Below the pieces are notes generated by a model that saw nothing but the letters and a program-made list of their open reading frames with translations, was not told the DNA's origin and searched no databases. A stretch of DNA of 64,000 bases from an uncultured Clostridia bacterium (GTDB taxonomy: Bacteria > Bacillota > Clostridia > Oscillospirales > Acutalibacteraceae): positions 1 to 64,000 of the forward strand of contig CANQOP010000010.1 of assembly GCA_947625485.1 (NCBI GenBank), in the 5' to 3' direction. Shown in pieces: positions 17,467 through 38,207 of the stretch (position 1 is its first letter; every line of letters starts with the position of its first letter). Both the position numbers and the translations under genes were made by a program.

Positions 17467-17540
17467 TTGCACAAATATTGTAAAAAACCGAAAAAATTGC
17501 ACAAATAATATTGACTTAAATCATAAATTTATTGTAAAAT
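17467..17540 (+). promoter_or_regulatory. Promoter and tandem TTGCACAAAT sites of the fibre locus
   Basis: TTGACT (17511-17516) and TAAAAT (17535-17540) are 18 bases apart. Immediately upstream the 10-mer TTGCACAAAT occurs twice (17467-17476 and 17497-17506), exactly 30 bases apart, about three helical turns, as expected for cooperative regulator binding. The same core lies in front of the genes at 33969 and 56197. Confidence 0.55.
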
Positions 17541-17599
17541 AATTTATAAGTTATGCTAAGTAATGTAATTGCGCCTTAATATTTTCAGGGAGGGATACC

Positions 17600-18412
17600 G
17601 TGTCTTTAAAAACATATTTAGACAGTCATCAGACGAGACTCAGAAAAAGAAAGAGACTTATAGCCTTCTTGTCAATATTAGCGATTCTAGGTCTTTCGTC
17701 CGCAACATACGCGTGGTTTACGGTTAATACGTTTGCGGGTATTCAGGACTTTGAGCTTGACATCAGTACGGGAGAGGACCTCAGGGTTTCGATGGAAAAC
17801 CACGGAACTAACATTGACGATTATGTGCACGTTATTACCAACGATATGGTAAATTCCTATCTTCGCAGATATAATACTTCTTTAAAGGATATGATTCTTG
17901 CTCCTGTTACGACGAATAACGGTACCGCCTATACATATCAGCACGGTCAGAAAGCGAATGAAAACGAACGCGGCTCTTACCTCGAGTTTAAGTGCTGGTT
18001 TATTGCGACGACCGATATGTACGTTCACCTTTCGACTGAGGGCACGGACGATGACGAGCACGAGCACATAGACGGAACGAAGGTAACCACTACCTCTCCC
18101 GCTCCTAAGAGCGATATTGTAAAGGCTATCCGTATGAGCTTTGATTCCAAAGACAGCTACAAAACCTACGAGCCTAATAAGGGAGGCAGGGAGTCAACCG
18201 CGCTGAAAACTTTCGATTTGCCGAAGGGCGAAATGGACTACAATAATTCAAACCAGCTCTTCCACCTCGATAAGCTCACGCCTAAGCAGGTCACCCTCCG
18301 CCTCTGGTGCGAGGGAGAAGACCCCGAGTGCGACGACGACGTTCAGAAGGCGAATTTTAAAATCCAGCTTTCGTTCTTGGGTTGTGACGCGAACGGAAAC
18401 CCGATATCTTAA
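17600..18412 (+). CDS. SipW-dependent TasA/CalY-like exported fibre protein, first gene of locus
   Basis: 270 residues from GTG, after AGGGAGGG. A basic N-terminus of 20 residues precedes a hydrophobic helix (about 21-37) ending SSATYAWFT, the kind of site cut by SipW-type signal peptidases in TasA and camelysin. The mature part has a beta-rich pattern and ends with LWCEGEDPEC (235-244) and an alternating final strand. Close relatives with the same layout are at 19389, 25583 and 26869. It is the first gene after the promoter. I infer a structural or capping subunit of an extracellular fibre; which of the two peptidases processes it is not known. Confidence 0.75.
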   Translation: MSLKTYLDSHQTRLRKRKRLIAFLSILAILGLSSATYAWFTVNTFAGIQDFELDISTGEDLRVSMENHGTNIDDYVHVITNDMVNSYLRRYNTSLKDMILAPVTTNNGTAYTYQHGQKANENERGSYLEFKCWFIATTDMYVHLSTEGTDDDEHEHIDGTKVTTTSPAPKSDIVKAIRMSFDSKDSYKTYEPNKGGRESTALKTFDLPKGEMDYNNSNQLFHLDKLTPKQVTLRLWCEGEDPECDDDVQKANFKIQLSFLGCDANGNPIS

Positions 18413-18448
18413 CGGAACTTTTCAAGGATTCCAAAGGAGTTGATTCCA

Positions 18449-19270
18449 TTGGCTTTTAGAAAAAAGAATATTGAACCCGCTACTCCCGAGGAAGTTGCAA
18501 AGCTTGGATTCAAGGATGAAGTAAAAGCGGCGAAGGATAAAAGGGCAGATGTTTATCAGCATTTTCATTCTCAGGAAAATGCAAAGCAGGTAGCCGACTC
18601 CAAAAAGCGCAAGAAAATCTACGGCGCTATTCTCGCTTCCCTGCTCGCGATTCTTCTGATAATGTATATCATTTCCATGCTTCTCACCCAGTGGGGAGAC
18701 CTCGTAATTTCTATCGGGGACGTATACGACGGAAAGTCGATTATGCTCAGTGACGGCGCAAAGTTTGACTCAGCCGTTACCACGCTTAACGGAGGCACGG
18801 TCAAGGATGTTACCAACATCACTAAGTCGTGGCTTCCCGAAGACCTCGATTCCTCGAAGGACGGAGCGCATAACGGCGAAAATTACCTCGCCTATACTTT
18901 CTATCTCAGAAATACGGGCGATAAGGACCTCGAGTATCAGCAGGTTATGAGCATCACGGGCGTTTCGAAGTCAGCCGACGAGGCGATACGCTTTATGGTC
19001 TACAGAAACGGCAAGCCCAGCGTGTACGCTAAAGGTCAGTACAGAAACCGAAAAGAGGCGGAGACTGACGCGACTAAGTGGGTTGACGATACCACGGTTT
19101 TAAATAATAACAAGGTCTCGCTTAAAGCGGGCGATACCGATAAGTTTACGGTCGTCGCGTGGGTTGAGGGCAATGACAGAGAGTGCGTTGACGCCATTAG
19201 AGGCGGTCATGTACGCGCAAAAATGATTTTTAACATCATTCCCGACGAAACAACCGCACCGCAAAACTAA
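18449..19270 (+). CDS. Membrane-anchored sibling of the fibre subunits
   Basis: 273 residues from TTG 18449, 9 bases after AAAGGAG; a TTG at 18440 touches the ribosome site. The N-terminus (about 1-54) is cytoplasmic and charged, with one helix (about 55-77). The outside domain ends with AWVEGNDREC (237-246), the signature shared with the neighbouring subunits, but there is no TYAWF cleavage site (the helix ends SMLLTQWGD). This suggests a permanently anchored base or docking subunit. Thirty-six bases separate it from the first gene. The role is inference from signature and topology. Confidence 0.65.
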   Translation: MAFRKKNIEPATPEEVAKLGFKDEVKAAKDKRADVYQHFHSQENAKQVADSKKRKKIYGAILASLLAILLIMYIISMLLTQWGDLVISIGDVYDGKSIMLSDGAKFDSAVTTLNGGTVKDVTNITKSWLPEDLDSSKDGAHNGENYLAYTFYLRNTGDKDLEYQQVMSITGVSKSADEAIRFMVYRNGKPSVYAKGQYRNRKEAETDATKWVDDTTVLNNNKVSLKAGDTDKFTVVAWVEGNDRECVDAIRGGHVRAKMIFNIIPDETTAPQN

Positions 19271-19388
19271 CTAAAGGTCACTACAACTTCCTGTTGCCGC
19301 GTTGCTGAGGTGGGATAGGAGTTGCGGACATATTATTGTAAAAAAGCCCTACCGTGTTTTCGGGGCAAAAATTTAAGGAGGATTTCTT

Positions 19389-20213
19389 ATGAAACACACA
19401 CATTCAAGAAAGAAGATGTTATTATCTTCTGTCGCTATGCTTCTTGTAGCTCTCGTAGCTCTCGGCTCCGCTACATATGCATGGTTTACCGCTAACCCGA
19501 ACGCTAACGCTTCAGGTATCAAGCTTAAAACAACTGCTGCCGCAGGTCTTGTTGTAAGAACAGACTCAGACGAAACTTGGTCCCACGCTGCCGAGCTTTA
19601 CAAGGGTGTAGGTGATGTATTCAATCTTAACCCCGTTTCTCAGGATCAGTCTTCACCTGCTTCTTTCTGGAAAGTTGACGCGGCAGAATCCGGAAAGTAC
19701 GACGCTAAGGAGGAAGAGATGACACCTGCTAGCGGCGGCACTTATGATCATCCAAACACAGGTGATTTCTACTCAGAGAAGGTTTATTTCAGACTTTCCG
19801 ACGGTTCTAATGCTACAGAGAACGCTAGCAAGAAGGTTTATCTCAAGGGCGTTACAATTAATAAAGCCGATTCTGCCACAATGGAGAATACTATTCGTGT
19901 TGCTGTTGCCGACAAGAGCGGTAAATTAATTGGCACATATGCGCTCAGCACTGCTGGACAACACGGAACTTTAACTGGCACGGAAAGAAGTGCTGCAGCA
20001 TTTAATCCTGCAATTAAGGATACAGCGGCATCTATAAATGAAGATGTAAATGTTGGTTCATTAACCGCTGATGCTGGTGATACAAATAACTTTGTTACTG
20101 TATATGTTTACCTCGACGGTCAGGATACAGAATGCTACTCCGATAAGGTTGGTACAGTAAACGCTGCTAAAATTATCGAGAGCATTCAGCTCAACTTCAC
20201 ACTTGCTGACTAA
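19389..20213 (+). CDS. Probable major SipW-dependent TasA/CalY-like fibre subunit
   Basis: 274 residues. The signal helix ends LGSATYAWFTANP, the best match to the SipW/TasA consensus in the locus. A strong AAGGAGG site and heavily biased codons at both ends of the gene suggest very high expression, so I take this as the major subunit. The mature part is rich in Ala, Ser, Thr and Asp, has no Cys until VYLDGQDTEC (240-249), and ends in a beta strand (IQLNFTLAD). The stretch encoded by about 19920-20095 uses TTA, GCA and GGA codons unlike the rest. Its own cognate peptidase gene follows after a strong hairpin. Confidence 0.75.
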   Translation: MKHTHSRKKMLLSSVAMLLVALVALGSATYAWFTANPNANASGIKLKTTAAAGLVVRTDSDETWSHAAELYKGVGDVFNLNPVSQDQSSPASFWKVDAAESGKYDAKEEEMTPASGGTYDHPNTGDFYSEKVYFRLSDGSNATENASKKVYLKGVTINKADSATMENTIRVAVADKSGKLIGTYALSTAGQHGTLTGTERSAAAFNPAIKDTAASINEDVNVGSLTADAGDTNNFVTVYVYLDGQDTECYSDKVGTVNAAKIIESIQLNFTLAD

Positions 20214-20277
20214 TTTAAAAAAATTAAAACGAGTTAATTCGGGTTTAGTTACTGATTAACAAATTGTATGTGTGATA

Positions 20278-20303
20278 CGGTCTCCTGTTTCGGCAGGAGA
20301 CCG
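20278..20303 (+). other. Strong intercistronic hairpin between fibre subunit and signal peptidase genes
   Basis: CGGTCTCCTG pairs perfectly with CAGGAGACCG around a TTTCGG loop. There is no T run after it, so it is not a standard terminator. It could stabilise the upstream subunit mRNA or lower downstream expression. Confidence 0.6.
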
Positions 20304-20337
20304 CAGGACAAAACCAAAGGAATGAGGAACTCTTTAT

Positions 20338-21129
20338 ATGAAAAAAACCGTGGGAAAAGTTTTGAATATTGTAGTAACCGTGCTTATAGTGCTCGTGCTG
20401 ATTGCCTCGGCGTTTGTGCTTGTAGTAACATTTACCGCAAAGGACGAAAACGGAGGAGTTCCGAATTTACTTGGGAAATCGCCTGTAAGCGTGCTCTCGA
20501 ACTCAATGCAGGGCGACGGCGAGCTTAATTTTAATAAGGGAGACCTTTTGATTTGCGATGCTGTTTCCGTAGAGGACAGGGTAGAAGCTCAATACAAGGT
20601 CGGCGATGTGGTTTGTTTCCCCTACGATATAGACGGAGACGGCTACAACGACTATGTAACCCATAGAATTTATAAAATCAACAAGGACGGTACATACCTT
20701 ACCAAGGGCGATAATAACGATACCTACGACCAGGACCCGAACGGTACGACAAAGTTTTCCAATGTTATCGGAAGCGATATTGTAGCCGTTTACCACGGCG
20801 CTAAAATCCCGGGAGTGGGCGACTTTATAAACTATATACGAACTCAGCAGGGCTTTTTCCTGATAGTCCTCCTGCCTATGATTATCTTCTTCCTCTATGA
20901 AGCTGTACGCGTCGTAATTAACGTTATGGCTTACAGCAAGGAAAAGGGACTTATTGAGGCGCAGAAGGCTATCGAAAACGCCGACTTGACCGAGGAGCAG
21001 AAGGCGAAAGCAATCGCCGAATACCTTGCCGCTCAGAACGGTGAAGCCGAGCAGGATAATCCGAAAGATGATGAGGACGAATCGGAAGAAGAGGGCGCAT
21101 CCGAGGCTTTAGAGCCTGAGAACAACTAA
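20338..21129 (+). CDS. SipW/ER-type signal peptidase I with acidic tail
   Basis: 263 residues. An N-terminal helix (about 8-33) is followed by VLSNSM with nucleophile Ser56 and YVTHRI with His109. The Ser-His pair, in place of the bacterial Ser-Lys dyad, is the mark of SipW, archaeal and ER enzymes. A second helix lies at about 168-195. The last 60 residues are Glu/Asp-rich and cytoplasmic, which is longer than usual. It very likely cuts the TYAWF-type signals of the neighbouring proteins. Position directly after the putative major subunit mirrors the sipW-tasA pairing of Bacillus. Confidence 0.88.
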   Translation: MKKTVGKVLNIVVTVLIVLVLIASAFVLVVTFTAKDENGGVPNLLGKSPVSVLSNSMQGDGELNFNKGDLLICDAVSVEDRVEAQYKVGDVVCFPYDIDGDGYNDYVTHRIYKINKDGTYLTKGDNNDTYDQDPNGTTKFSNVIGSDIVAVYHGAKIPGVGDFINYIRTQQGFFLIVLLPMIIFFLYEAVRVVINVMAYSKEKGLIEAQKAIENADLTEEQKAKAIAEYLAAQNGEAEQDNPKDDEDESEEEGASEALEPENN

Positions 21130-21399
21130 AGTAACGAGAACGTCGTGGTAGGTCAGCAATACCACACGTCACAGTTACAATGCTGCATAAATTTTTATTA
21201 CATTTTATTACATATTAAAAACATAAAATACACAAAAAATTAACACATTAAATTAAGCATAAAAATTTTTTAAGCCTTTTGTTTCTCCTGAAATTCGATG
21301 TGCTGCGCAAAACGCAGATAATGTTAAGGGTTCAGTATAAAAATAGTCACGGTCAGACGGCTTTTGAGAAACAGAAAATTTTTTCAAGGAGATAATCCT
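21130..21399 (+). other. Intergenic region within the fibre locus with hairpin
   Basis: GTGGTA/TACCAC (21145-21165) nested in GTAAC/GTTAC (21131-21178) form a hairpin without a T run. The following 100 bases are AT-rich. Near the end is CGGTCAGACGG (21350-21360), an 11-mer also found at 33813-33823. I see no convincing promoter, but the AT-rich part could hold a weak one for the ATPase gene. Confidence 0.4.
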
Positions 21400-22941: not shown

Positions 22942-23028
22942 TTTAAATTAACCTTAGGGACGTCAAAAGCTCGGCGTCCCAAAAGGTATTTAATTAGTCT
23001 GATTTTTATGAAACAGAGGTGAAAGGTT

Positions 23029-25581: not shown

Positions 25582-25582
25582 T

Positions 25583-26833
25583 ATGAATATGAAAACCGGC
25601 CGTAACCGGCGTCTGCTGATTTCTAAAAATTCAATATTGATGCTGGTTATGCTGGTTGTTGTTTTCCTCGCTGTTTCCGCGTGGTTTTACGCAAAACTGA
25701 ACGATGCGAACGCGACGGGTATTACCGTGAAAACTTCCTCTCAGGGAGCTCTCCAGCTTGCTCTTCCTTACAACGGAAGTTATCCCGATTTTGCGGAAAA
25801 CGAGGAGCACGACCCCAACGCAGGTTTTTTTGATAAGATAAACTTCAGCGAAACTGACTATATGAGAGATATGCTAAAGGACGTAACCGGCGACGGCAAG
25901 AAGTTTATAATTCCTACATTTGATTCCGCTATCAGCGTAAAGGACGGAAGAACCGTCGTTGAGAACGGAGAGTGGGTTGACGCGGATTCCAGTAAGACCG
26001 TGCTCGACGACGAGTTTAACGAAAACGATAACAAGTACTACTATATTTCTCTTGATTTTTATGCGCGCGCCAAGAGTCCGACGGTGGGGATAAGGGAAGG
26101 GTCTTATCTTTCAACGCTATCCGAAATTGAGAAAAAACCGCTCAAGTCGCAAAATAAGGACGATATAATCAATCCAAGCTCCGTGAGCGGAGAAAACGGA
26201 TTTTTTTCCGCCGATGCAATTGTCGGCGCTATGAGAGTTTCGCTGGTCGGCGCACCGGTTAGCGGGCATAGCGAGAGCAACGGCGTATGGAACGATACAT
26301 ATCAAGGGGACGGCGACTGGGATGCGACGTCAAAGTGCAAATTCCTATGGCTTCCGAGACCCGATCTTTTCCTACAGACCGACGACTCTATGACCAGATG
26401 GAACCTTAAAACCGGCGTAAAACCAACCGATATGGACGGAGTAACCTACAAGCACAGCTTTTATAAGGCAGAGCTAACGTCGGATGAGGTTACCAACCGA
26501 GGCAAAAAGGTTACTAAGACGATTTATAACGATAAGGCAATAATTGATAAAGATGCCGATGATGAAGAACCTGATTTCTTCCACGTTACGAAGATTGACA
26601 ATAAAACGAATACCCATGTCGATTCGAGCAAATCTCTGTACGATACACCTAAATTCGGGCAGAATGTAACAATCGAAGATGAAAAAGACTCAAATACTCT
26701 TGTGCGTTTCAAGAACAATGAAGAATATTATCTCTACAAGTTTAAGCTCAACCTTTGGATTGAGGGAGACGATGCAGAGGCGAGACGAGCGATGAACGAC
26801 GGTCAGTTTAAACTGAACCTTGTATTTGGATAA
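25583..26833 (+). CDS. SipW-dependent exported fibre-type protein
   Basis: 416 residues from ATG 25583 after AGAGG, starting one base after the coiled-coil gene. The signal helix ends FLAVSAWFYAKLND, a variant of the TYAWF site. The mature part is longer than in the first subunits, with Asp/Glu-rich loops, and ends LWIEGDDAEA (Trp392) plus a final strand FKLNLVFG. The two Cys-bearing signature positions are changed to Ala here. Role as a fibre subunit or tip protein is inferred from the shared signal and C-terminal signature. Confidence 0.68.
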   Translation: MNMKTGRNRRLLISKNSILMLVMLVVVFLAVSAWFYAKLNDANATGITVKTSSQGALQLALPYNGSYPDFAENEEHDPNAGFFDKINFSETDYMRDMLKDVTGDGKKFIIPTFDSAISVKDGRTVVENGEWVDADSSKTVLDDEFNENDNKYYYISLDFYARAKSPTVGIREGSYLSTLSEIEKKPLKSQNKDDIINPSSVSGENGFFSADAIVGAMRVSLVGAPVSGHSESNGVWNDTYQGDGDWDATSKCKFLWLPRPDLFLQTDDSMTRWNLKTGVKPTDMDGVTYKHSFYKAELTSDEVTNRGKKVTKTIYNDKAIIDKDADDEEPDFFHVTKIDNKTNTHVDSSKSLYDTPKFGQNVTIEDEKDSNTLVRFKNNEEYYLYKFKLNLWIEGDDAEARRAMNDGQFKLNLVFG

Positions 26834-26868
26834 TATACAATTACTAAAATGTAAAGAGAGGTGAAAAT

Positions 26869-28203
26869 ATGGACAGCAAAATAAAAAGGCTCACGAGTAT
26901 CTTCCTTCAGAACCGTCCCGGTAAGCGGCAAATTGTGTTGTCTGTAGTTTCTCTTATTCTCGCCTCTCTTGTGCTTATGTCCGCGACCTACAGCTGGTTT
27001 GTGCTGCACGAAAGCGAGGCATATACCGATAATATAAAGCTTGACGCAGGAAAGGGTCTGCGAGTAAATGACCTTGAAAATACTCTGCAGAATATTTCCG
27101 ATAAATCTTTCCTGGTGCCCGCATCCTCGCTCGACGGACGAAATTTGTTTTTTGCGGCAGACGGTTCTCAGTTCGGAAGCACAAGCACGCAGGAGCTTAC
27201 ATACAGAAACGCAAATATTGGAGATAAGAACGTAAACTTTGTCCAGATTGACTTCCAGCTTACGGCGGAGGCAAATAATACGGGCGTTTATCTTGATACA
27301 AGCGCTCCCGAGGATGATAAGGACGTTCCCCGCACGCATATGTATTTTGCGGGGTGGAAGAATGATGAGGACGCTAGTAAATACGGTTGGAAAAATGCCG
27401 ACGAAGCTATAGAGGCTTCAAAGGCTCTTCGTGTTGCTCTCTTCTATGAGGGTATGGACGACAATAAGCCGATAGTGTTCAGCTCTCAGAATCAGACAGT
27501 AACGACAGACGCAGTTACGGAGATTGACCGTACCTCGGGCGAGTTTATTAGCGACGAAAGGCAGATTGCGTATTCCTTTAAGGATTATGCCTACGGAAAA
27601 AAACAGGTTATAACTATGGGACAGGGAGAAACGAGAAACTTCTCCTTGATTTTGTGGCTCGAAGGTACTGATGAAAAGCATTGTACAAGCGACATTGCCG
27701 GTAAAAAGATAGATTTCTCCTTTGCAATGACAACTTCTTGGGAGAACACGGTTAAGATTAGATTTCAGGATACCACAAATAAGATTTCTCCGTTCCTTGA
27801 CAAAAATCAGAGCTGCTCGCTCGTACTTAACTACAACGACATTTCTCACGGAATTAAAGATTACAAGGTCACAATGTATAAGGAAAACGACAGTGACAAT
27901 ATTTGGTACTGCAATATTCCGGGAATGGCGTTTAACGACCTTACATTTGAGATTGTTAAGGATTCGACGAGAAAGATTTACAGCTATAACTTTGATACAG
28001 AATCAGAGGATTCAAATCGGCCTTTGAACTGGGAAAAGACCAAATCCGGCGTTTCCACGAAGTACCGCGGCGAATCAACGCTATATATAAACGATGGCTG
28101 GAACGATACCTATTACGCGGGTCACTGGTATGACGGCGATATCGAAGAGAAGGGCGACGGCGGCGATTCAGGCGAAGTCGGCGGTGGAGAAGATGAATGG
28201 TAA
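26869..28203 (+). CDS. SipW-dependent exported fibre-type protein with extra C-terminal module
   Basis: 444 residues. The signal helix ends LMSATYSWFVLHE. The fibre-type domain carries LWLEGTDEKHC (Trp263). After it a second module of about 110 residues starts VKIRFQDTT and contains IWYCNIPGMAF, a pattern that recurs in the next two genes and resembles the CBM26-like starch-binding fold. The C-terminus is a Gly/Asp/Glu-rich tail (about 424-444). GAGGTGAAAAT precedes the ATG. I infer a subunit that carries a binding module. Confidence 0.68.
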   Translation: MDSKIKRLTSIFLQNRPGKRQIVLSVVSLILASLVLMSATYSWFVLHESEAYTDNIKLDAGKGLRVNDLENTLQNISDKSFLVPASSLDGRNLFFAADGSQFGSTSTQELTYRNANIGDKNVNFVQIDFQLTAEANNTGVYLDTSAPEDDKDVPRTHMYFAGWKNDEDASKYGWKNADEAIEASKALRVALFYEGMDDNKPIVFSSQNQTVTTDAVTEIDRTSGEFISDERQIAYSFKDYAYGKKQVITMGQGETRNFSLILWLEGTDEKHCTSDIAGKKIDFSFAMTTSWENTVKIRFQDTTNKISPFLDKNQSCSLVLNYNDISHGIKDYKVTMYKENDSDNIWYCNIPGMAFNDLTFEIVKDSTRKIYSYNFDTESEDSNRPLNWEKTKSGVSTKYRGESTLYINDGWNDTYYAGHWYDGDIEEKGDGGDSGEVGGGEDEW

Positions 28204-28248
28204 TCACTGTATTACCGATAAAGATATTTACAGACGGGAGGTGTCACT

Positions 28249-30792
28249 ATGAAAAGAAAAGCTGAATTTACAACGTCATTCGGACGAAAGAATCTTTTGC
28301 TTGCCGTAGTGGCGCTTGTTCTTGTTCTGATGATGGCTGTCGGCGCGACCTACAGCTGGATTGAGGATATTAAGCTCGTTCAGGTGCAGATGACGGCCGA
28401 CGGGGACAGCAAGCCGCTCACCGTAGGCGAGGATATTTGCGCTACTGCCGAAATCACAAAGGATGAAACTGTGATTAACCTTGGCAATATTATTAAAGAA
28501 AGAGCAAAGGAAGATGCTGACGGTACTCCCGTTAAGGATGCCGACGGCAAAGATGTAATGGAAAAATATATCGACAAAAAAGGTTATTTCTACGAGTCGG
28601 GTGATATGCACCTTTCTCCCTGCTACAGCAACGGCGAGGATTTCTACTTTGCTGTTGATAAAAAACAGATGAACGGCCAGGACACAAGCAACGCCTACCG
28701 ACTGGGCAATAAGGACGACGAGAATGTAAACTATATCAGTATGACGCTTGAAGTTTCGTCTCCTGAGGCGTCTGCCGACTTTTGGTTTGATGAGATTCCG
28801 ACGGTTAAGGCATCTAATGGGTCGGAGATTGAGGGCGCCCGGTATTCAGTAACCGTAGACGGTGTGACGAAAGTATTCTCAAAAAACGGAACCGATTGCA
28901 AAACTGTTGCGTCAACTACTGCTACAACAACGCAGACAGTACTTGCAAACAGACTTGCGAGATTTACATACGGCAATTCGGAGAACACAACTACCGACCT
29001 TGGTAAAAACGGAAACATACTCTTTTCCGTAAATAAGGGAGAGTCCGTAACGCTTAACGTTAAGATATGGCTCCAGCAGGGTACTGTTTCCGACGTTGAT
29101 CTTTCGAATATTGACCTCACTATAGTTTCATCTCTGAACAAAACGCACAGAATTCTCTTTCAGGATAACACCACAGGTGCCGGAGCTGAAAGCTGGCTTG
29201 GAAACAAATCCGCAAGAATGTTCCTTGCAGTTCCGAGTCTCAGAATCGGAAGCAGCTGGCAACAAGGCAAGAGTTACTGGGAGATGAAGAAAAACAGTTC
29301 ACTTAGCAGCAGCGCAGGAAAAGATGTTTACTGCCCTGTTGATACGAGCGGAAAAGAAATATCTCTGCCGGCGACTCTGAACGGCGAGAAGGTATACTTC
29401 CTGAGATGTTCATCAAGCGGCTGGAACACTGGAGACAGCCTCGATATTTTAAAAAATATTGGTATTTCAAAATTTTATAACTACTGGGATGCAAATATTC
29501 CCAATGTTTATGACGACAGCAAGTTTACCGTATACGGCGGTACTCTCGACCAGAATGCTGTCGATAGAATTGGAGATGGAAGAAAGCCTACCTTCCGCGG
29601 AAACGGTACGTGGGGTGAGGTTGTTACCATAAAGGTGACGAATGATAACACCTCCACTAATTTAGCGCCGGAAAAAAAGACGAACGGCGACCTAAACAAC
29701 CTGTTCATCGTGGATCATAGTGACGAGGATACGTTAGGTGAAATTCATTACCAGACTATGAACTGTTTTAGTCAGAGCGGAAACAACCACCAATGGAGAG
29801 CTTATGTTCCCGCATCCTCAACAAAGCTTGAATTTTGGTTCCATCAGTACAGATATAGCGACAATGAAAACAACACACAGCGTTACTGGGCATACCGTGA
29901 GGATAGAGACTTTCAGGTAAGGCCGAAAACTTCTACAGTATATCATTTGACTTCCGAAACGGCAGGCTACTGGGAAGGTTCGGGAAAGGTTTACTTTGTT
30001 AATACCGGTAAATGGTCTTCACCCAGCGCTTATATCTGGCAAGAGAGCGGCACCTGGTACGAAGCGTGGGTCGGAGAGTCTATGAAAAAGACCGATATGA
30101 CCGTTAAGGTGAATAACATTTCATATGATGTGTATTCTTATGAGATTAATTCCAAGAATATGATATATAACAATGTCATATTTAACAGCGGTGATAAAAA
30201 TGACAGTTCCGAGAAAAACGGAAAGCAGACGAAAAGCCTGATTATGCAAGTCGGAAAGTTCTACTACTATAATTACTCGAACAACAAGGACAACGGAAAA
30301 TGGTACGACAGTCTCAGCGATATTCCCGACAGCGATGTCAGCGGTGGCGGCGGAGACGACGGTGGCGGCGGAGACGACGGTGGCGGTGGCTCCGTTGATT
30401 ATGGCGACCACAAGACTATTTCTGACTACTATCTGTATGCATATATACAGAATGATTCCGCTCACACATATGTGTCTCCCGATAATGCAGGAGACCTTAA
30501 ATTCAGGAAGAACAGCGGCAATTCATACCGTCTTCTAATTAACCTGACAAAGGACGTTCCCTGTTATATTCACATCAGAAAGCTAAACGGAACTAACGTT
30601 GTAAATGAGTTCGGCGTCGGAGGGTCAGGAACAAAAATTGTAAGAGCTTCCACAAATCCTATAGGATTCTCTTCGACACAGAGCGCTCAACCGGTACTTA
30701 TTGAGACGGATGTAACAGGAACTTACGCTATCAACTTCACTATCGATGGTGAGGGGCATCCGCAGGTAACCGTTACATATCCGCCGAAGTAA
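28249..30792 (+). CDS. Large SipW-dependent surface protein with CBM26-like modules
   Basis: 847 residues. The signal helix ends VGATYSWIEDIK. A fibre-type domain (about 30-295, with a degenerate IWLQQGT in place of the Trp-Glu-Gly signature) is followed by a module starting RILFQDNTT (about 301) and a clear CBM26-like module at about 578-690: GKVYFVNTGKWSSPSAYIW, then a Trp-rich stretch, YSYEI, VIFNSG and QTKSL. A Gly/Asp linker (about 698-714, GGGGDDGGGGDDGGGG) joins a last beta domain. Starch-binding modules of this type occur in amylases of Ruminococcus; here no catalytic domain is present, so an adhesin role is likely. Confidence 0.7.
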   Translation: MKRKAEFTTSFGRKNLLLAVVALVLVLMMAVGATYSWIEDIKLVQVQMTADGDSKPLTVGEDICATAEITKDETVINLGNIIKERAKEDADGTPVKDADGKDVMEKYIDKKGYFYESGDMHLSPCYSNGEDFYFAVDKKQMNGQDTSNAYRLGNKDDENVNYISMTLEVSSPEASADFWFDEIPTVKASNGSEIEGARYSVTVDGVTKVFSKNGTDCKTVASTTATTTQTVLANRLARFTYGNSENTTTDLGKNGNILFSVNKGESVTLNVKIWLQQGTVSDVDLSNIDLTIVSSLNKTHRILFQDNTTGAGAESWLGNKSARMFLAVPSLRIGSSWQQGKSYWEMKKNSSLSSSAGKDVYCPVDTSGKEISLPATLNGEKVYFLRCSSSGWNTGDSLDILKNIGISKFYNYWDANIPNVYDDSKFTVYGGTLDQNAVDRIGDGRKPTFRGNGTWGEVVTIKVTNDNTSTNLAPEKKTNGDLNNLFIVDHSDEDTLGEIHYQTMNCFSQSGNNHQWRAYVPASSTKLEFWFHQYRYSDNENNTQRYWAYREDRDFQVRPKTSTVYHLTSETAGYWEGSGKVYFVNTGKWSSPSAYIWQESGTWYEAWVGESMKKTDMTVKVNNISYDVYSYEINSKNMIYNNVIFNSGDKNDSSEKNGKQTKSLIMQVGKFYYYNYSNNKDNGKWYDSLSDIPDSDVSGGGGDDGGGGDDGGGGSVDYGDHKTISDYYLYAYIQNDSAHTYVSPDNAGDLKFRKNSGNSYRLLINLTKDVPCYIHIRKLNGTNVVNEFGVGGSGTKIVRASTNPIGFSSTQSAQPVLIETDVTGTYAINFTIDGEGHPQVTVTYPPK

Positions 30793-30830
30793 TAAAAAAA
30801 TACAAAAATTTATATTAAGGTGGTGATACC

Positions 30831-32381
30831 ATGAATACAACAAAAAAGCTCCTTGTCTTGTGCTTAGTCGCGGTAGTAGGTATAGTCTCCTTTATGCCGT
30901 CAACGTTTTCGTGGTTTAACCACAGCGCAAAGCAATCCGGCGACAAGATGAACTACACGAGGGAAAGTCTCCCTGTGTCCGACAGCAAGATAACTATGAA
31001 GACCGAGTACCTCACTATGGAAAAGGGCGAGGACGGCAAAGACCTCAACACGCTCCTCTATGACGAAAAAGGTAATAAAATTATTGATACAACAAAGGGT
31101 ACTGGAGGACGTGTTGAAAATCAGGTTGAGATAAAGCCGGGTCACGCGCAGTATTTCCGCACGACCTTTGAAAATACAGGAAATGCAACCTCTATGGTTA
31201 GCATATCGCTAGCGAATCTTTCTAATATGCAGGATGTGCTCGTCGGTACGATTTCACCTGCCGTCAATGAGCGCGCCTTTTCCCGAAGAGCTTCGCTGAC
31301 ACGTGCGGCAAGCGGTAAAATGCGCGTGTATCTCAAGGTTCCTAAAACAATCAAAAACTGGAAGGATGCCACGTCAATAAGTATAGTTGCTAACGAAAAC
31401 ACAAGTAATAAAATACCGATGACTAAGCTTTCAAAAGCTCGTCACAACTCTGATATTTGGTACGGAGACCTCCCCGTAGGAACAACAACCTACTACTTCT
31501 ATGATCACGCGGGGGATACCGATAAAAGCAACCACTGGCACAGGACCGCGTCTCTCAACGAATACAAGCAGGACACATTTCTTACTCTTGAAAATGAGAA
31601 GACTCAGGACGGTAACGACTATATTGCAATCAATACGGACGAGTACAGAATTTTCCTTATGGTTCCCACAAGTATAACCACATGGGGAAGCTCCTCTGAC
31701 GTTCAGGTTATTGTTAACAATGATACGTCTAACCCTATCTCAATGGAGAAGGTTAAGGCTTCCGGCGGCGGAGATTATACTGAGGGGGGGTCAAAGGTAT
31801 GGTACGCCGACCTTCCCAACAGCGTTACAAAATATTACTTCAGAGTAAATAGCAGTTCATCAGGTACTAACAGAACAGCCGAATATAATTTTGAAAAGAA
31901 TACGACCGTTACGCTTACGAACACAACTACATCAGGTTACAGAGGTTCTACGTCCAGTCGTCTGACAGGACTTATTTCCGTTATGAACTGGTACAGCAAG
32001 CTGTCCATAATAAAAGGGCAGGGTGCGCAGATAAGCCTTGTTAACGGTACTGATTACATAGGAGATAAGAAAACACCTCTGAAATATTCAGTGGTAAAAG
32101 GCAGTTCATATATTACCGTAAATTCAAGCACAGGTCAGGTTTCTACGGCGAGTTCTATGCGATATGGGATAACAGCAACAATCAGGACCACCATCACAGG
32201 GGTTCTCGGAGATACACTTGACCTCGATACGGAGGTTGAGTCGCCTGAGAAACTCACTACCGTGCCTATCGCGCAGAATATTAAAGTACCTAAGGGCGGA
32301 AAGTCCTCTGTCGAGTGGTACATAATGAACGGAGACAAAAATAGCTCCGCATTTTTTGACAACGTATTCTATACACAGTAA
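30831..32381 (+). CDS. SipW-dependent surface protein with tandem binding-type modules and Ig-like domain
   Basis: 516 residues. The signal helix ends MPSTFSWFNHS, and the mature start contains a TasA-like strand region (QYFRTTFENTGN). Two tandem modules of about 110 residues begin MRVYLKVP (about 164) and RIFLMVP (about 274); both contain Trp, a run like NDTSNPISMEKV and a Trp-Tyr (IWYGDLP, VWYADLP). A BIG2-like bacterial Ig domain (about 390-465, YSVVKGSSYITVNSSTGQVS) follows. It is the last subunit before the second peptidase gene. Function is inferred as adhesion or fibre decoration. Confidence 0.66.
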   Translation: MNTTKKLLVLCLVAVVGIVSFMPSTFSWFNHSAKQSGDKMNYTRESLPVSDSKITMKTEYLTMEKGEDGKDLNTLLYDEKGNKIIDTTKGTGGRVENQVEIKPGHAQYFRTTFENTGNATSMVSISLANLSNMQDVLVGTISPAVNERAFSRRASLTRAASGKMRVYLKVPKTIKNWKDATSISIVANENTSNKIPMTKLSKARHNSDIWYGDLPVGTTTYYFYDHAGDTDKSNHWHRTASLNEYKQDTFLTLENEKTQDGNDYIAINTDEYRIFLMVPTSITTWGSSSDVQVIVNNDTSNPISMEKVKASGGGDYTEGGSKVWYADLPNSVTKYYFRVNSSSSGTNRTAEYNFEKNTTVTLTNTTTSGYRGSTSSRLTGLISVMNWYSKLSIIKGQGAQISLVNGTDYIGDKKTPLKYSVVKGSSYITVNSSTGQVSTASSMRYGITATIRTTITGVLGDTLDLDTEVESPEKLTTVPIAQNIKVPKGGKSSVEWYIMNGDKNSSAFFDNVFYTQ

Positions 32382-32392
32382 CTGGTGATATT

Positions 32393-33028
32393 TTGGAAGA
32401 AAAGACAAAAAAAGTATTTACAGTTATTAGAGTGCTTAAAAATGTAGTACTCTCGCTCCTTGTTGCGGCGTTGGCCGGGCTAATAGTCGTGACAATGGTT
32501 ACGAGACTCACGGGAGGTACGCCTTCCGTGTTCGGTTACTCCGTTTTTCGCGTAAGCTCCGGCAGTATGACGCCGCAGCTTGAAATAGGCGATGTAATTT
32601 TAAACAAACAATGTGACCCAATGACGATAGAAAAAGGAGACGTCGTAACTTATAACGGTACAGAGGGTTCCTTGAGCGGAAAAACCGTCACACATAGGGT
32701 TACTAAACCTCCGTATAAGCAGAACGGAGAGTATTATATAGAGACCAAGGGTGATGCTAATCCGAGTGCGGATCCGCCTGTAAATGTGTCGCAGGTCAGC
32801 GGTATTATGATTTCAAAGGTAGATATACTTAGTATACTCTACAGCTTCTTTATAACGCCGTGGGGTCTGATTACGATTGTTTTGCTCATTGTTCTAGCGT
32901 TTTTTAATGAAATAGTCATTTTTGTGAAAACGCTTTTGGGATATAAAGAGGACAAAAAGGAAAGCGTTCAGGACATAATCGAACGCTATCAGAAAGAAAG
33001 CAAAACGGATTCCGAGAAGGACGAATAA
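32393..33028 (+). CDS. Second SipW/ER-type signal peptidase I
   Basis: 211 residues from TTG, 11 bases after the previous stop. An N-terminal helix (about 16-37) is followed by RVSSGSMTP with nucleophile Ser58 and TVTHRV with His101; a second helix lies at about 154-178. Ser-His chemistry again marks the SipW class. It is shorter than the enzyme at 20338 and lacks the acidic tail. It probably serves the group of exported proteins just upstream (25583-32381). Confidence 0.88.
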   Translation: MEEKTKKVFTVIRVLKNVVLSLLVAALAGLIVVTMVTRLTGGTPSVFGYSVFRVSSGSMTPQLEIGDVILNKQCDPMTIEKGDVVTYNGTEGSLSGKTVTHRVTKPPYKQNGEYYIETKGDANPSADPPVNVSQVSGIMISKVDILSILYSFFITPWGLITIVLLIVLAFFNEIVIFVKTLLGYKEDKKESVQDIIERYQKESKTDSEKDE

Positions 33029-33071
33029 AAAGAGCACAGAGCCCCGCAATTTTCTGAAGGGAGGAGTCAAA

Positions 33072-33467
33072 GTGAAAAAACTAATCTGTATTTTAGTTTC
33101 CGCGCTTGCGGTTGTAAGCGTGGTTCTTACGGGTTGTACAGGTACTTACGACAAAACACCTGACCAATTCAGTAAAATCACTTGGACCACTTCAGACTAT
33201 AGCCTCAGGTTTGCTCCCGATAATGACTGTAAAGGCAGATATACCTTTGACGGGAAACCATACGACATTCGACTGGAATTCGGTCCTACGCGTGTTACGG
33301 CGTACGATGCCGATGATGCGGATAAGGTTTTCTTCCAAGCGAGTTGGACGTATGAGGAAGAGGACTATCTCTATATCTATGACATCAAATTCAATACCAA
33401 CGATTATAAATTGTTGAAAGAAAATTTTGTAGAGTTTCTCCGACTGTATCAGGATAAAAAGAACTAA
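33072..33467 (+). CDS. Small lipoprotein, last gene of the fibre operon
   Basis: 131 residues from GTG after GGGAGG. The signal peptide ends in the lipobox LTGC (Cys22), so the protein is lipid-anchored outside the membrane. The remaining 110 residues look like a small beta domain rich in Asp and Tyr. It is followed by a strong terminator. It could anchor or plug the fibre, but there is no recognised domain. Confidence 0.75.
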   Translation: MKKLICILVSALAVVSVVLTGCTGTYDKTPDQFSKITWTTSDYSLRFAPDNDCKGRYTFDGKPYDIRLEFGPTRVTAYDADDADKVFFQASWTYEEEDYLYIYDIKFNTNDYKLLKENFVEFLRLYQDKKN

Positions 33468-33469
33468 GA

Positions 33470-33499
33470 GAGGCTGTCCGATACGGACAGCCTTTTTAA
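33470..33499 (+). terminator. Intrinsic terminator of the fibre operon
   Basis: GGCTGTCCG/CGGACAGCC with an ATA loop, followed by TTTTT. Confidence 0.9.
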
Positions 33500-33723: not shown

Positions 33724-33775
33724 TTGCACAAAATGTAAAAACAATATTGTTGATAGAAATTTTTTATGATAAAAT
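33724..33775 (+). promoter_or_regulatory. Promoter and TTGCACAAAA site of the giant surface protein gene
   Basis: TTGTTG (33747-33752) and an extended -10, TGATAAAAT (TAAAAT 33770-33775), are 17 bases apart. TTGCACAAAAT (33724-33734) sits just upstream, matching the tandem sites in front of 17600. The leader of about 190 bases contains CGGTCAGACGG (33813-33823). Confidence 0.55.
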
Positions 33776-33968
33776 TGAATTGTATAACTATGGGTAGGTG
33801 CGCCCTTTACCGCGGTCAGACGGTTGCATACCTGCAGAAATTCGGAATTGATTGAATTTTTTTAAGAATAAAAAGGTCAGATTTATCGTTTTATCTCTCA
33901 GCAATAAATTATCAATTACCAATTCTCAATTTGAATTTGTCCCGCAAATCCAAAACGGAGGGAAAAGT

Positions 33969-36900
33969 ATGAAAACACAAATTAAACGAATGTCAAAATC
34001 CGCGTTAGCCGTTATCCTGACGATATGTATGTTCATATCCTGTATGATGGTTGGAACCATCGACGCCAACGCCTACAGTATTGGTAGTAATATAAAAGTT
34101 TATTTTATTAATACTAGAGCATGGTCTAATGTATATATGCATTTATGGGGTAATAATTGGAGTCATTACGAAAGAATGGATCTAATATCTAATACTGGCA
34201 TCTACTATAAATCATTTAATGGATACGATTATAATGGGTTTAATTTTACGGCTGATGGTTATGATAATGGTTCAAATGGTACGACCAGTGGACTTTATGA
34301 AGACATTAAGTCTAACAAAGTTTATTGGCCAGATGCGGGGACATCTACCGATTTTAACAAGATGCTCGGTAATGCAAATGTTGTTTCGATGATTGACAAT
34401 AGTGGTTCAGGCACGTACACACAGACAAGTAGTTCAAATTGTGTTGCTAAAGTCAGCGGTTATAAGATTAATAGTGGTTCTACGACGACAACAGCTATCA
34501 CTGCCAGCACAGGGGTTTCCTCTTCTGCGTCAATTAAGCCTGTGTATGCTTCTAATGTAACCTATAATTTTACTGCTTCGGGCGACTATGTGTTTAAGGG
34601 ATATTATACACTTGCCAGTGGTACCGCTTCATCAAGTCTTCCTTCAAATGTTAATACAGCAACAACATACACTACTCAATCGTTGGGCTATGATGGCAAT
34701 GCGAATTTACCTACCGTATATGCATATTTCCAGAAGAAAGAAACGAACTATTATGTAGCAGGCGGCACAGCGCCTATCGGAACATCAACATCTTCTTCTA
34801 GCTGGGGGAGGCAGTTAATGACATCCTCCGGCACCACCTATTATAGAACATATACTAAAGTGCCTGCGGGTACATATGATTTTAAAATTACCAATAGTAG
34901 TAGTGAGAGTGATAATACTAATAAGGAATGGTATGGCGGTTCAAATCTAGATACTGACAAAGTTCAAAAAGGAACAGGATGGGAATTATCTAATGCGGGA
35001 GGCAGCGATAATAATGCTCACTTAGAGTTATCTTCCTCTGATTTTAGTGACTATAATGTTACAATTTATTTAACCTCCAATAAAAAAATTTATGTTTCTG
35101 TTACGGGTGTTACCAAACCCAAGCATAACATTATCTACACCCCAAGTTCTGCGACGTTGGCAAGCGATCATTTCAAATATAATTCGAAACAGACAAGTGC
35201 GTCAGAGGGCGATACCGTAACTTTCTCTATTCAAACAGATACCGATTACGAGCCCTCCGTTACAAAGGATGGCTCAGTGCTCGATTATTCCCAAAAGAGC
35301 GGCAACACATATACTTATACTTTCAAGATGGGAAAGTCCGACGTTAATATTAACGTTGAGGCTAAAAGAGCCGCCGAAATGAAAGATATAAATTACTATG
35401 TTGATATGCACGGTAACAATGTAACTTCAGGCAACGAGCCTGTTATCACTATTACCGATCAGAGCGGAAAATCAACTTTAAGCAGCAAAAAACTTACCAA
35501 GCAGACAAGCGATACCAGCGAATCTGTTTACGGCGGAACAGTTTCAACCCCGTATGTGGAGGGGAATAATTTCTACGTAAAGATAACGTGGAACGGAAAC
35601 GAAAGCGGAATATTTGAAATTAAGGGCGATGATGCTGTCAGCGAAAAGGATCTCTGGTTCGAGGCAATTAACGAACAGTCAACCACTTTTGTCAAAAGAG
35701 AGTCCACCACCAAAAAAGGCGGAGTAGCGACAGGCAAAAAGAGAATTTACCTTAAAAAGCCCTACAATATGGACGAAAAAAGTAAATGGGCTGTAATCGG
35801 CTTGTACAACTGGAGAAACTCTGATAATAAAGATGAGACTGACTGGTTTCATACTAATACAATGACTAATATGGGTCAGGACAGCAGCGGAAACGATTAT
35901 TATTACTACGATATGCCGAGTGAGAGCGACTATATAATTTTCCAGGGTCTTGAGAAAGAAAGTCAGGACCGTCAGGGAGTTCCGCAGACGGAGGATATTC
36001 AGCTGGGACAGAATAATTTATTTGTTCTCTCGACTGACGGAACAACTGCCAAGGCAAGCAGCAGCGGCGTGATTCCGTCCGCCTCAAAATACACAACCTC
36101 CCTGAGAATGAATAAGGGGACTACGGCTAGCATAGCCCTCACAACGGGTAACTACGTAGGAACGTCTGTTGCGTACAGCGTAAAGAGCGGATCCTCAGAT
36201 TATGTTACCGTAGACAATAGCGGTAATGTTACAGCAAGAAAGAGTACGCAAAAATATACCGCAAACAACAAAAAAGCAACTATACAAATAAAAATTAAAG
36301 GCTCCTTTGATAGCTTACTAACAAAGGTAAACAAAGGGCTTGATATTGTAACTATCGAGGTCAGTGTAGAAATTTACGACTCTGCCCAAATAGACGAATT
36401 CAGCCTTATGTCTTACGGCTCTCAGGAGACCAAGGTTAAAATTAAAAATAATACCGGCGGTGAAATTGTAAGTATAGATAAAACCGTGGGAACAGGATAC
36501 AAAAACGGCGCTACGTATAACAACGTGGCTATTGTCACAAGCACTGGCAGCGGAGCTTCGTGTGTATTTACAATAAAATACGCTAAGCCCGAGGACGACT
36601 ACAGTAAGCTCAAAATTACTTTTGAAACGACGTCAAGACCCTTGGAATCCGGTACAGGCGAAAGATACGGTTTTAACAGCTGGCAGAAGAATGGTACAAT
36701 AGAGTCCAAATATACTTCCGACGGTAAAGCGAATACGGCAGTATCTACGGAGCTTTCCAAGAGATTGACCGTCACTCCGAATATGGCTGCGGACGGCTCA
36801 ACCCTCGAGGCGGAATATGTAAGATACTCGTACACGGATTTGCACATCACATATAATTATTATGAGTATCAGACATACAGGGAAGAAGAGGGAGATTGGT

Positions 36901-38207
36901 ACTATTTCTACGATCCCGAGTTTGCATGCCACGAGGACGAAAATGACCCGAATTTTGAAAAAAGTCATATTAAAAAGTCCTATGATGAAGTTGTCGAGGT
37001 TCGAGGCACTGGCAATCTGACTCAAAACCGTACTCAGATAGAGCAGCTGGTTAAAGAAAATATGACGCAGGTCAGCAATAACTATTACAACTATACTCTC
37101 AAAACGATAGGCGAAGCAAAGAAATCGGGCAGCTCAGACTATGAGGTGACGGTAACTGCCCTACTTAACCAGACGCCGAGGACATATAAAGTTACCGTCA
37201 ATCCCTCCGGAACAGGTAAAAGTCCCACAGTAATTGATAAATCGGAGACCGGAGACCCTATTTACTATCAGAGTTACGTTGACATAAGCGCACAAACAGT
37301 TACCGGAACAAATCAAAATCTTGATTGGCGAGCGGTTCCTCAAGAAAAGGGTTCCGCCAATGCCGTAACAAGCAATACTCCGCTCCTCGCGCGCGGACCT
37401 AACTACCGTTTCCGTGTTACTGACAACAGCACAATCACGGTAGAACCGAACACTTCGGAGTCTGGCGAAAACCCGAAAAAGAAATCCACCGTAACTTACA
37501 GCGGAAGGGAGATAACCCACGAAGAGAGTAACGGTACAATGGTAGAAAAGCTGATCCAGAATTTTTATATTGCTCATTTCTTTAGCAAAGATATGATTAA
37601 GAAGGAAGACAAGGACGGTACCATAAAGACGATGGACGACGTCACTTTTGTCGGCGGAGGTGTTGTTTACTACTCGGTTGATAATGACGGAAAACCGCTG
37701 AAAAACACAGTCGTTGACGGCGGTTATGTAGAGAGTGACGGCTTTGCGAATGTGAGCGAGATAACGTCAGTAATTCAGACCGCAATTAATGACAATATGC
37801 CAAAGGATTACACGGGTAAAGAGAATCTCACGAAGATTGCGTACAGCACCGAAATTCCCGCGCAGGTATATAGAGACGCGCAGGGTGTGAGCACAGGTCT
37901 CGTACTGAGATATCTTCCATATGAAACCTTTGTGCAGGGAAAAGACGGCGCGGAGGATTCCTACGTAAGAAATACGAAGGCATACCGATATTCAAACGCC
38001 TTGGGCGCATATCAGTATGTTTATTCCGCAAAGGCGGAGAACAAACCGTCGAACGAAGGTAAAAATATGAGGCTCTACTCATACTATATCTATTCCTACA
38101 CGGACTACGACGAGGACGACAAGGCTATGACGGTATACGACGTTGTTCTTTCCGAACAGCCTGCCGATGCCGAGACGTACTATAATGCGTCAAACAACAT
38201 AAACTAA
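33969..38207 (+). CDS. Giant secreted multi-module surface protein
   Basis: 1412 residues from ATG 33969 after GGAGGG; the frame continues upstream without a site. A normal signal peptide (about 1-36, ending IDANA) implies the general secretion route, not SipW. Modules: a CBM26-like start (about 42-100, IKVYFINTRAWSNVYMHLW), a beta module (about 260-375, YYVAGGTAPIG), an InlB-B-repeat-like module (about 390-470), a module starting KRIYLKKPYNMDEKSKW (about 590), a BIG2-like domain (about 710-790), then about 600 residues of unknown, Tyr- and Thr-rich beta structure. No LPXTG, SLH or dockerin is seen. The first 350 codons after the signal are much more AT-rich than the rest. Position and shared modules link it to the fibre locus. 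Confidence 0.72.
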   Translation: MKTQIKRMSKSALAVILTICMFISCMMVGTIDANAYSIGSNIKVYFINTRAWSNVYMHLWGNNWSHYERMDLISNTGIYYKSFNGYDYNGFNFTADGYDNGSNGTTSGLYEDIKSNKVYWPDAGTSTDFNKMLGNANVVSMIDNSGSGTYTQTSSSNCVAKVSGYKINSGSTTTTAITASTGVSSSASIKPVYASNVTYNFTASGDYVFKGYYTLASGTASSSLPSNVNTATTYTTQSLGYDGNANLPTVYAYFQKKETNYYVAGGTAPIGTSTSSSSWGRQLMTSSGTTYYRTYTKVPAGTYDFKITNSSSESDNTNKEWYGGSNLDTDKVQKGTGWELSNAGGSDNNAHLELSSSDFSDYNVTIYLTSNKKIYVSVTGVTKPKHNIIYTPSSATLASDHFKYNSKQTSASEGDTVTFSIQTDTDYEPSVTKDGSVLDYSQKSGNTYTYTFKMGKSDVNINVEAKRAAEMKDINYYVDMHGNNVTSGNEPVITITDQSGKSTLSSKKLTKQTSDTSESVYGGTVSTPYVEGNNFYVKITWNGNESGIFEIKGDDAVSEKDLWFEAINEQSTTFVKRESTTKKGGVATGKKRIYLKKPYNMDEKSKWAVIGLYNWRNSDNKDETDWFHTNTMTNMGQDSSGNDYYYYDMPSESDYIIFQGLEKESQDRQGVPQTEDIQLGQNNLFVLSTDGTTAKASSSGVIPSASKYTTSLRMNKGTTASIALTTGNYVGTSVAYSVKSGSSDYVTVDNSGNVTARKSTQKYTANNKKATIQIKIKGSFDSLLTKVNKGLDIVTIEVSVEIYDSAQIDEFSLMSYGSQETKVKIKNNTGGEIVSIDKTVGTGYKNGATYNNVAIVTSTGSGASCVFTIKYAKPEDDYSKLKITFETTSRPLESGTGERYGFNSWQKNGTIESKYTSDGKANTAVSTELSKRLTVTPNMAADGSTLEAEYVRYSYTDLHITYNYYEYQTYREEEGDWYYFYDPEFACHEDENDPNFEKSHIKKSYDEVVEVRGTGNLTQNRTQIEQLVKENMTQVSNNYYNYTLKTIGEAKKSGSSDYEVTVTALLNQTPRTYKVTVNPSGTGKSPTVIDKSETGDPIYYQSYVDISAQTVTGTNQNLDWRAVPQEKGSANAVTSNTPLLARGPNYRFRVTDNSTITVEPNTSESGENPKKKSTVTYSGREITHEESNGTMVEKLIQNFYIAHFFSKDMIKKEDKDGTIKTMDDVTFVGGGVVYYSVDNDGKPLKNTVVDGGYVESDGFANVSEITSVIQTAINDNMPKDYTGKENLTKIAYSTEIPAQVYRDAQGVSTGLVLRYLPYETFVQGKDGAEDSYVRNTKAYRYSNALGAYQYVYSAKAENKPSNEGKNMRLYSYYIYSYTDYDEDDKAMTVYDVVLSEQPADAETYYNASNNIN

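Follow-up and report, generated by a model that had tools for sequence, protein, structure and literature searches.

A conserved operon-like set of SipW-type export genes with a McrB/McrC-like pair in an uncultured Clostridia bacterium

We describe a block of genes at 17.6-33.5 kb of a stretch of 64,000 nucleotides from an uncultured Clostridia bacterium (positions 1 to 64,000 of contig CANQOP010000010.1, which is contig 10 of the 1.77-Mb assembly GCA_947625485.1; the whole stretch is called the window below). The block runs from an exported protein (T1) to a small lipoprotein and is a real and conserved operon-like set. An earlier note, made from the letters of this DNA alone, had proposed a fibre or adhesion apparatus at this place, and its inventory stands: all genes it named are present as + strand open frames, and one block holds six exported proteins with SipW-type signals (T1 and T3 to T7), a membrane-anchored sibling (T2), two signal peptidases (SipA and SipB), an AAA+ protein, a coiled-coil protein of 850 residues and the lipoprotein (Table 1). 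The AAA+ and coiled-coil proteins are read here as relatives of McrB and McrC, respectively. The known function of McrBC is DNA restriction.

Gene content and conservation

We mapped the neighbourhoods of loci from assemblies and from the best 80 of at least 557 confirmed named contigs, all 80 of which are titled as MAG or uncultured. The closest relatives with a name are Ruminococcus-type genomes from metagenomes, many of them from rumen and gut. Clustering of the AAA+ proteins at 97% yielded 88 loci, not counting L033/L034 (one AAA+ protein split over two contigs) and AAA+ proteins of 450 residues or less. Sufficient flanking sequence is available for 62 of the 88; the 26 others, including L152 and L156, were omitted for short flanks. 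In all 62 non-redundant loci a SipW-type peptidase gene lies upstream and a gene for the coiled-coil protein, recognised by its DUF2357 domain, lies downstream of the AAA+ gene on the same strand. T2 precedes the AAA+ gene in 59 of the 62 loci (it is absent in L032, L056 and L057). The order differs in L152 and L156, where a peptidase gene stands between the AAA+ and DUF2357 genes. The DUF2357 gene is present in 79 of 80 clusters with enough downstream sequence, the exception (L035/L182) consisting of the AAA+ gene alone.

The association also holds at the level of genomes. Among 80 of 88 congeneric genomes, 50 harbor both the AAA+ protein and T1, 3 the AAA+ protein only, 8 T1 only, and 19 neither (Fisher p 2e-9); only strong AAA+ matches were counted, and one congener with a match at E 7e-4 was scored as absent. 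Seven of the eight loci in genomes with T1 only run into a contig end. The eighth (L174 in G067, 8072-11757, on one contig) consists of T1, T2 and a truncated peptidase gene with a transposase-like gene (judged by eye) in between; neither AAA+ nor DUF2357 was found there, and the locus is a decaying copy. The AAA+ and coiled-coil genes therefore belong with the export genes, as the earlier note had proposed; the arrangement it had named beforehand as speaking against its proposal, namely that the two genes usually lie elsewhere or with restriction genes in relatives, is not what the examined loci display. A stray restriction gene as an explanation of the AAA+ gene is rejected on the grounds of synteny and co-occurrence.

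In a sample of the class, 21 of 391 genomes (15 of 223 genera) encode a member of the AAA+ family, the bacterium's own included; in a sample of the phylum, one of 398 genomes does so at E 1e-40, namely its own. It usually occurs in a single copy per genome (68 matching relatives). The family is very large, with at least 7,999 proteins matching at E 1e-40 or better among 8,000 scored candidates, and the names given by the source among the 120 matches listed are all 'hypothetical protein'.

Gaps between the genes of the unit (17600-33467) are mostly short, the widest (~270 bp) separating SipA from the AAA+ gene. A terminator follows the lipoprotein gene, and in a relative (L066) SipB is followed directly by a histidine kinase, with neither lipoprotein nor giant gene, which places the end of the conserved unit at about 33.0-33.5 kb. 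The earlier note had included the giant protein in one block, of which the part from T1 to the lipoprotein holds as a conserved unit, whereas the giant protein, beyond the terminator, is probably separate from it. The promoter-like site 5' of T1 is a weak one because the scan overall is no richer than shuffled sequence (27 sites vs a mean of 27.8). With respect to riboswitches, no Rfam match reached the gathering score in the window. Eight relatives gave only a Gut-1 RNA (RF01706, 60.2 bits; L141 2165-2241, - strand).

Table 1. Features of the block and its borders, with positions in the window.
Feature	Positions	Strand	Remarks
Promoter-like site (TTGACT-18-TAAAAT)	17511..17540	+	5' of T1; 10/12 consensus positions
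T1, first gene of unit, exported subunit	17600..18412	+	SipW-type signal ending SSATYA, followed by WF; C-terminal WCEGEDPEC motif
T2, membrane-anchored sibling	18449..19270	+	start picked by comparison with relatives
T3, candidate main fibre subunit	19389..20213	+	conserved SipW-type signal, hypervariable body
SipA, SipW/archaeal-type signal peptidase	20338..21129	+	TIGR02228; Ser in SNSM, His in VTHR
Membrane-anchored McrB-like AAA+ NTPase, 513 aa	21400..22941	+	one transmembrane segment, Walker A/B, NxD signature
McrC homologue (coiled-coil protein), 850 aa	23029..25581	+	DUF2357 head, coil, DegV/FakB-like EDD end
T4, exported subunit	25583..26833	+	SipW-type signal; WIEGDD motif
T5, exported subunit	26869..28203	+	SipW-type signal; WLEGTD motif; additional C-terminal part
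T6, exported subunit	28249..30792	+	SipW-type signal; CBM26 starch-binding module, residues 581-651
T7, exported protein	30831..32381	+	SipW-type signal PSTFSWF
SipB, second SipW/archaeal-type signal peptidase	32393..33028	+	TIGR02228; Ser in SGSM, His in VTHR
Small lipoprotein	33072..33467	+	lipobox LTGC; missing from relative L066
Intrinsic terminator AGGCTGTCCGATACGGACAGCCTTTTT	about 33471..33498	+	stem listed on opposite strand; + strand stem then TTTTT, by reading
Giant protein	33969-38207	+	ATG at 33969, beyond terminator

The McrB-like NTPase and its McrC-like partner

The AAA+ protein consists of one strong transmembrane segment (residues 59-77), a coil-like stretch after it (judged by eye) and the AAA+ domain. 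Its motifs are a Walker A GISGTGKT, a Walker B LDEMN and a signature GTINNDDST, read as NxD; Walker A and GT-x-NNDDST occur in 88 of 88 non-redundant relatives, DEMN in 87 of 88. Aligned by eye to the McrB motif, GT-x-NNDDST presumably reflects a one-residue deletion. The NCBIfam McrB model matches the protein at 1.1e-6, far under the model's cut-off, and a profile of eight relatives searched against solved structures matched three sequences, all of them McrB (best 8.1e-8). PADLOC's PDC-M26A model, which belongs to a candidate defence system, matches at 2.4e-42; no PDC-M26 family is among the PADLOC matches of the DUF2357 protein. FtsL_Actino matches at 1.2e-4 (21.9 bits, under the cut-off of 55), with no FtsB model among the matches. 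Judging from motifs and profiles, the AAA+ protein is a McrB relative and therefore probably a GTPase, which makes a McrB-type GTPase more likely than the ATPase of the earlier note; its NNDD would correspond to the NxD-plus-D motif of an uncharacterised McrB branch in the available text of Bell et al. (2024, PMC11090510).

We note two further observations on this family. An apparent fusion of AAA+ and PF21081 in the protein database (P0003, 646 aa) was set aside as an internal duplication and likely assembly artefact. In some genomes of the class (G722:C71, G867:C16, G881:C8, G885:C108 and G903:C71) two AAA+ matches without the N-terminal transmembrane part of the profile lie within ~4 kb of each other, possibly a tandem variant of the system.

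The coiled-coil protein, for which the earlier note had only a generic description, is a McrC relative in which a DegV-like domain takes the place of the McrC nuclease. Its domains are DUF2357 (about residues 1-325), a coil (about 330-700) and a DegV/FakB-like EDD domain (about 705-850), and a model of it likewise gives a McrC head, a coil and a DegV-like end. From an alignment of 32 relatives, 20 have no domain after the coil and 12 have the DegV-like end; a crude C-terminal pattern, which 16 of 87 match, picks up short tails of unrelated sequence as well, so the alignment count is preferred. No nuclease was found in the McrC homologue, nor in a Pfam scan of the proteins of the block. A scan of the neighbours in relatives took in 46 of 69 unclassified ones and gave one DUF559 and no HEPN among the matches listed, which cover 25 of 40 families; each of the remaining 15 has a single matching member, with an E value above 9e-6, as judged from list order. 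A nuclease in or beside the McrC homologue, as in type IV restriction (McrBC/CoCoNuT), thus appears to be missing here.

Systems of this kind have been named before. Bell et al. (2024, PMC11090510) surveyed type IV restriction and devoted one paragraph to a clade of McrB/McrC systems that they call CoCoPALM and connect with signal peptidases and the assembly of pili. The earlier note had called the combination of genes undescribed, which is wrong because this name already exists. The origin of the clade in that survey is also compatible with a role in defence, in which the pair would be a membrane-anchored anti-phage module akin to type IV restriction and the exported proteins would be its neighbours, phage sensors or decoys. 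The close kinship with McrBC and the PADLOC match fit such a module, and the hypervariable exported subunit (see below) could reflect phage pressure. The McrC homologue without nuclease, the many relatives that end with the coil, and the lack of nuclease matches in the block and among the neighbours listed argue against it, as do the usual single copy, the same flanking genes in L066 and the SipW-type genes that accompany the pair in all 62 loci, and we regard defence as distinctly improbable.

Two congeners that carry the locus (G030 and G047) possess, elsewhere in their genomes, a distant McrB-like gene of greater length, with a ~600-aa gene after it (L036 2710-7610 and L037 7379-12419). Both lie near recombinase-like or type I restriction-like genes, judged by eye, and are perhaps ordinary McrBC, which would make them a helpful contrast.

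Exported subunits, signal peptidases and flanking genes

Exported proteins were recognised by a signal pattern of our own design (a hydrophobic stretch, then A/S-T/V-Y/F-A/S-W), which is present in 6 of 15 mechanically called open reading frames longer than 140 aa in the block (both strands) and in 0 of 55 elsewhere in the window. The two peptidases match TIGR02228 with 67 bits (SipA) and 84.7 bits (SipB) at a cut-off of 51.85, and the Ser-His dyads of both can be read from the sequence. In the whole 1.77-Mb assembly only two places exceed this cut-off, both in the block, with a third, sub-threshold match on contig 5; a profile of the T1 family has three matches in the assembly, likewise all in the block. 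The adjacency, and the lack of other peptidases over the cut-off, suggest that SipA and SipB are dedicated to the adjoining subunits. A motif count over 115 peptidase matches (both motifs in 44, His in 98, Ser in 53) was left unused, the serine pattern being too narrow.

T2 consists of a cytosolic N-terminal tail of ~60 residues, one transmembrane helix and an ectodomain ending in WVEGNDREC, with no signal cleavage motif seen. It aligns with the T1 family by hhalign at 96.3% probability over 91 columns, and T3 is homologous to T1 at 99.2%, so that T1-T3 form one homologous subunit family that includes a membrane anchor. Pfam has no family that matches T1 or T3 at E up to 1, and none of T1-T3 has a Pfam module above cut-off. 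The closest folds of T3 are those of polymerising pilins, weakly matched, which hints at a pilin-like family. Sequence and profile searches of the Protein Data Bank with the subunits gave nothing convincing and no TasA match; TasA is absent from the structure lists used for fold comparison, which counts neither way. Of the label TasA-like in the earlier note, the type of signal and a weak fold match remain, while the TasA sequence family is not matched. T3 has the highest codon index of the block (0.705); the index is weak evidence because genes at 13840 and 14553, outside the block, outscore T3, and because the reference is a single gene, groEL (ribosomal protein L16 was not found in the assembly).

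A second group of exported features concerns carbohydrate binding. The CBM26 module of T6 (7.6e-07, 29.6 bits) exceeds the Pfam cut-off of 28.1, and CBM26 was found in 18 of 70 scanned large exported subunits of relatives (out of 137) and not in the other 52. The giant protein has an ordinary, non-SipW signal ending DANA-YS, and its X25 pullulanase-like and CBM26-like matches are weak and below cut-off. The starch-binding-like modules of the earlier note are therefore confirmed for T6 and for part of the relatives, and not for the giant protein. On the other side of the block, a membrane-anchored protein (15635-16501, - strand) adjoins the LOG gene and the locus, an arrangement kept in L066. 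Its C-terminal part is one we take by eye to be cohesin-like; the domain scan gave no cohesin match. Beyond the giant gene, a HisKA/HAMP histidine kinase and an OmpR-type response regulator (38483-40691, - strand) are convergent with the block, and in L066 too the locus is bordered by the kinase; a regulation of the block by this pair is possible. The giant protein and the kinase and regulator pair were rejected as core parts, L066 being without the giant gene and having the kinase, LOG and the possible cohesin-like gene as its flanks.

CBM26 modules suggest adhesion to starch, and together with the possible cohesin-like protein and the giant protein at the flanks they would also fit separate starch or surface adhesins in the manner of an amylosome, sharing a signal and a domain and never polymeric. 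This reading leaves T1-T3 aside, which lack Pfam modules and belong to a homologous family with a membrane anchor; most large subunits of relatives carry no CBM26, and the folds nearest to T3, weakly matched as they are, belong to proteins that polymerise. We give it little credence.

The subunits differ strongly in their conservation. We compared 38 loci whose T3 carries a SSVAMLLVA-type signal: Spearman correlations with AAA+ identity are 0.74-0.83 for T2, SipA and the DUF2357 head, 0.65 for T1 and 0.22 for the body of T3. In pairs with AAA+ identity of at least 90% (n=41), the T3 body has a median identity of 30% (20-45) and its signal of 20 residues one of 95%; in most species pairs this close in the AAA+ protein, T3 can hardly be aligned. 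For example, the window and L058 share 96% identity in the AAA+ protein, 56% in SipA and 24% in T3, whereas the window and L039 share 70% in the AAA+ protein and 53% in T3. Pairs with T3 identity of at least 50% at AAA+ identity below 78% number three in all. T3 is not always variable, as in the AAA+ bin of 80-90% the bodies reach 87% identity in at least one pair. We take the pattern as a sign of allele replacement of T3 under diversifying pressure; fast divergence alone might also produce it. In L066, LOG (80%) and the histidine kinase (83%) are about as conserved as the AAA+ protein (85%) and T1, T2, T3 and SipA reach 46-50%; it is therefore the exported and membrane parts that evolve fast and not the whole region. 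In commensals, such a variable main subunit points to diversification like that of an antigen.

A further relationship is that to cyclic di-GMP (c-di-GMP). In 21 of the 88 loci the neighbourhood includes a same-strand EAL-domain gene (17 upstream, 4 downstream); the window's own block yielded none. Of the four downstream proteins, the three that were scanned are GGDEF-EAL proteins, and an ALVR-type EAL motif is present by pattern in all four. The same pattern, a crude one, is absent in 13 of the 17 upstream proteins, five of eight checked also having an HD domain; those without it may be receptors and not enzymes.

AAA+ proteins often act as remodelers. The McrBC-like pair could be a regulator or quality-control device: it would tie export to peptidase activity, to the folding of subunits or to the c-di-GMP state, and assembly would draw no power from it. 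The AAA+ protein is the most conserved part compared, as expected of a general device with changing clients, and the EAL-domain proteins in the operon point in the same direction. Neither the AAA+ nor the DUF2357 protein has an identified sensor domain, however, with a reservation for the DegV-like end of the latter, and such a coupling is equally compatible with a motor. We hold this alternative to be unlikely.

Proposed mechanism and known systems

We consider it reasonably probable that the block is of the CoCoPALM type and serves, as an operon-like unit, to produce a surface fibre or pilus, its McrBC pair without detectable nuclease being reused as a membrane-bound motor or gate. T1 and T3-T7 would be exported by Sec and cut by SipA or SipB after the ATYA-type motif, and the mature subunits, predicted to be beta-sandwiches, would join by donor-strand exchange with their conserved N-terminal segment as the donor. 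In such a fibre T3 would build the shaft, T1 would be an early or base subunit, and T5-T7 would be adhesive minor subunits, with CBM26 in T6. The uncleaved T2 would anchor the fibre and bring its cytosolic tail beside the membrane-anchored McrB-like ring, into which the DUF2357 protein may dock as McrC does in McrBC, stimulating the hydrolysis of nucleoside triphosphates (NTP) and extending its coiled coil into the cytoplasm. NTP-driven movements might then license, power or retract assembly, and in other lineages the c-di-GMP proteins of the same operon probably switch the unit.

A more specific version is possible, though we hold it doubtful: a membrane-anchored McrB ring, driven by a nuclease-less McrC with a long coiled coil, would power extension or retraction of a Gram-positive, sortase-independent pilus of the donor-strand type. 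Species would exchange its main subunit as they would an antigen, and c-di-GMP would set its activity in several lineages. If true, this would be a fibre motor with no kinship to the ATPases of type IV pili, and a restriction system turned into a machine of a surface organelle. More generally, a nuclease-free McrBC tied to fibre-like protein export would show the NTPase core reused for envelope work. Settling the matter would allow many surface loci in Clostridia of the gut to be annotated and turn the naming of CoCoPALM into a testable claim.

In type IV pili the fibre is driven by a hexameric NTPase on the inner side of the membrane. To the block this motor would be a functional analogue only, as ATPase family, export route and subunits are different. 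To our knowledge no motor is known for SipW-type fibres, which would here gain a candidate.

The sipW-tasA locus of Bacillus, TasA/CalY/CapP of B. cereus and sipW-bsaA of C. perfringens likewise combine a dedicated SipW-type peptidase with adjoining exported subunits, and the last includes a two-component system inside the operon (PMC13082335, PMC7395162). They have fewer subunits; the term 'ATPase' does not occur in these two articles, whose available passages mention neither a McrC homologue nor an uncleaved anchor; the block further differs in that T1 and T3 match no Pfam family. With CoCoNuT systems of type IV restriction (PMC11090510, available text) the block shares an NxD-type McrB and a DUF2357 protein with a long coiled coil, and it differs from CoCoNuT and McrBC by the nuclease that they have and that was not found here.

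The closest resemblance is to CoCoPALM, which according to the available text of PMC11090510 comprises a NxD McrB-like NTPase, an N-terminal transmembrane segment plus coil, a coiled-coil McrC homologue and linked signal peptidases. Of these four features, taken as defining, the block possesses three (NxD McrB, DUF2357 with coiled coil, signal peptidases); the segment plus coil, called FtsB-like in that article, is suggestive only in the block. By title and abstract only this article and its preprint (PMC10542128) concern McrBC in the CoCoPALM literature, and an announced follow-up was not found. The main text of PMC11090510 contains no TasA, SipW, DegV, GGDEF, c-di-GMP or Ruminococc-, and the available text does not state cargo, organism or mechanism, part of which the figure supplements and Supplementary file 1 may hold. 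Relative to that text, the block and its relatives would add the cargo family and the variability of its subunits, a McrC homologue that ends in a DegV-like domain and in which no nuclease was found, and the genes with EAL domains.

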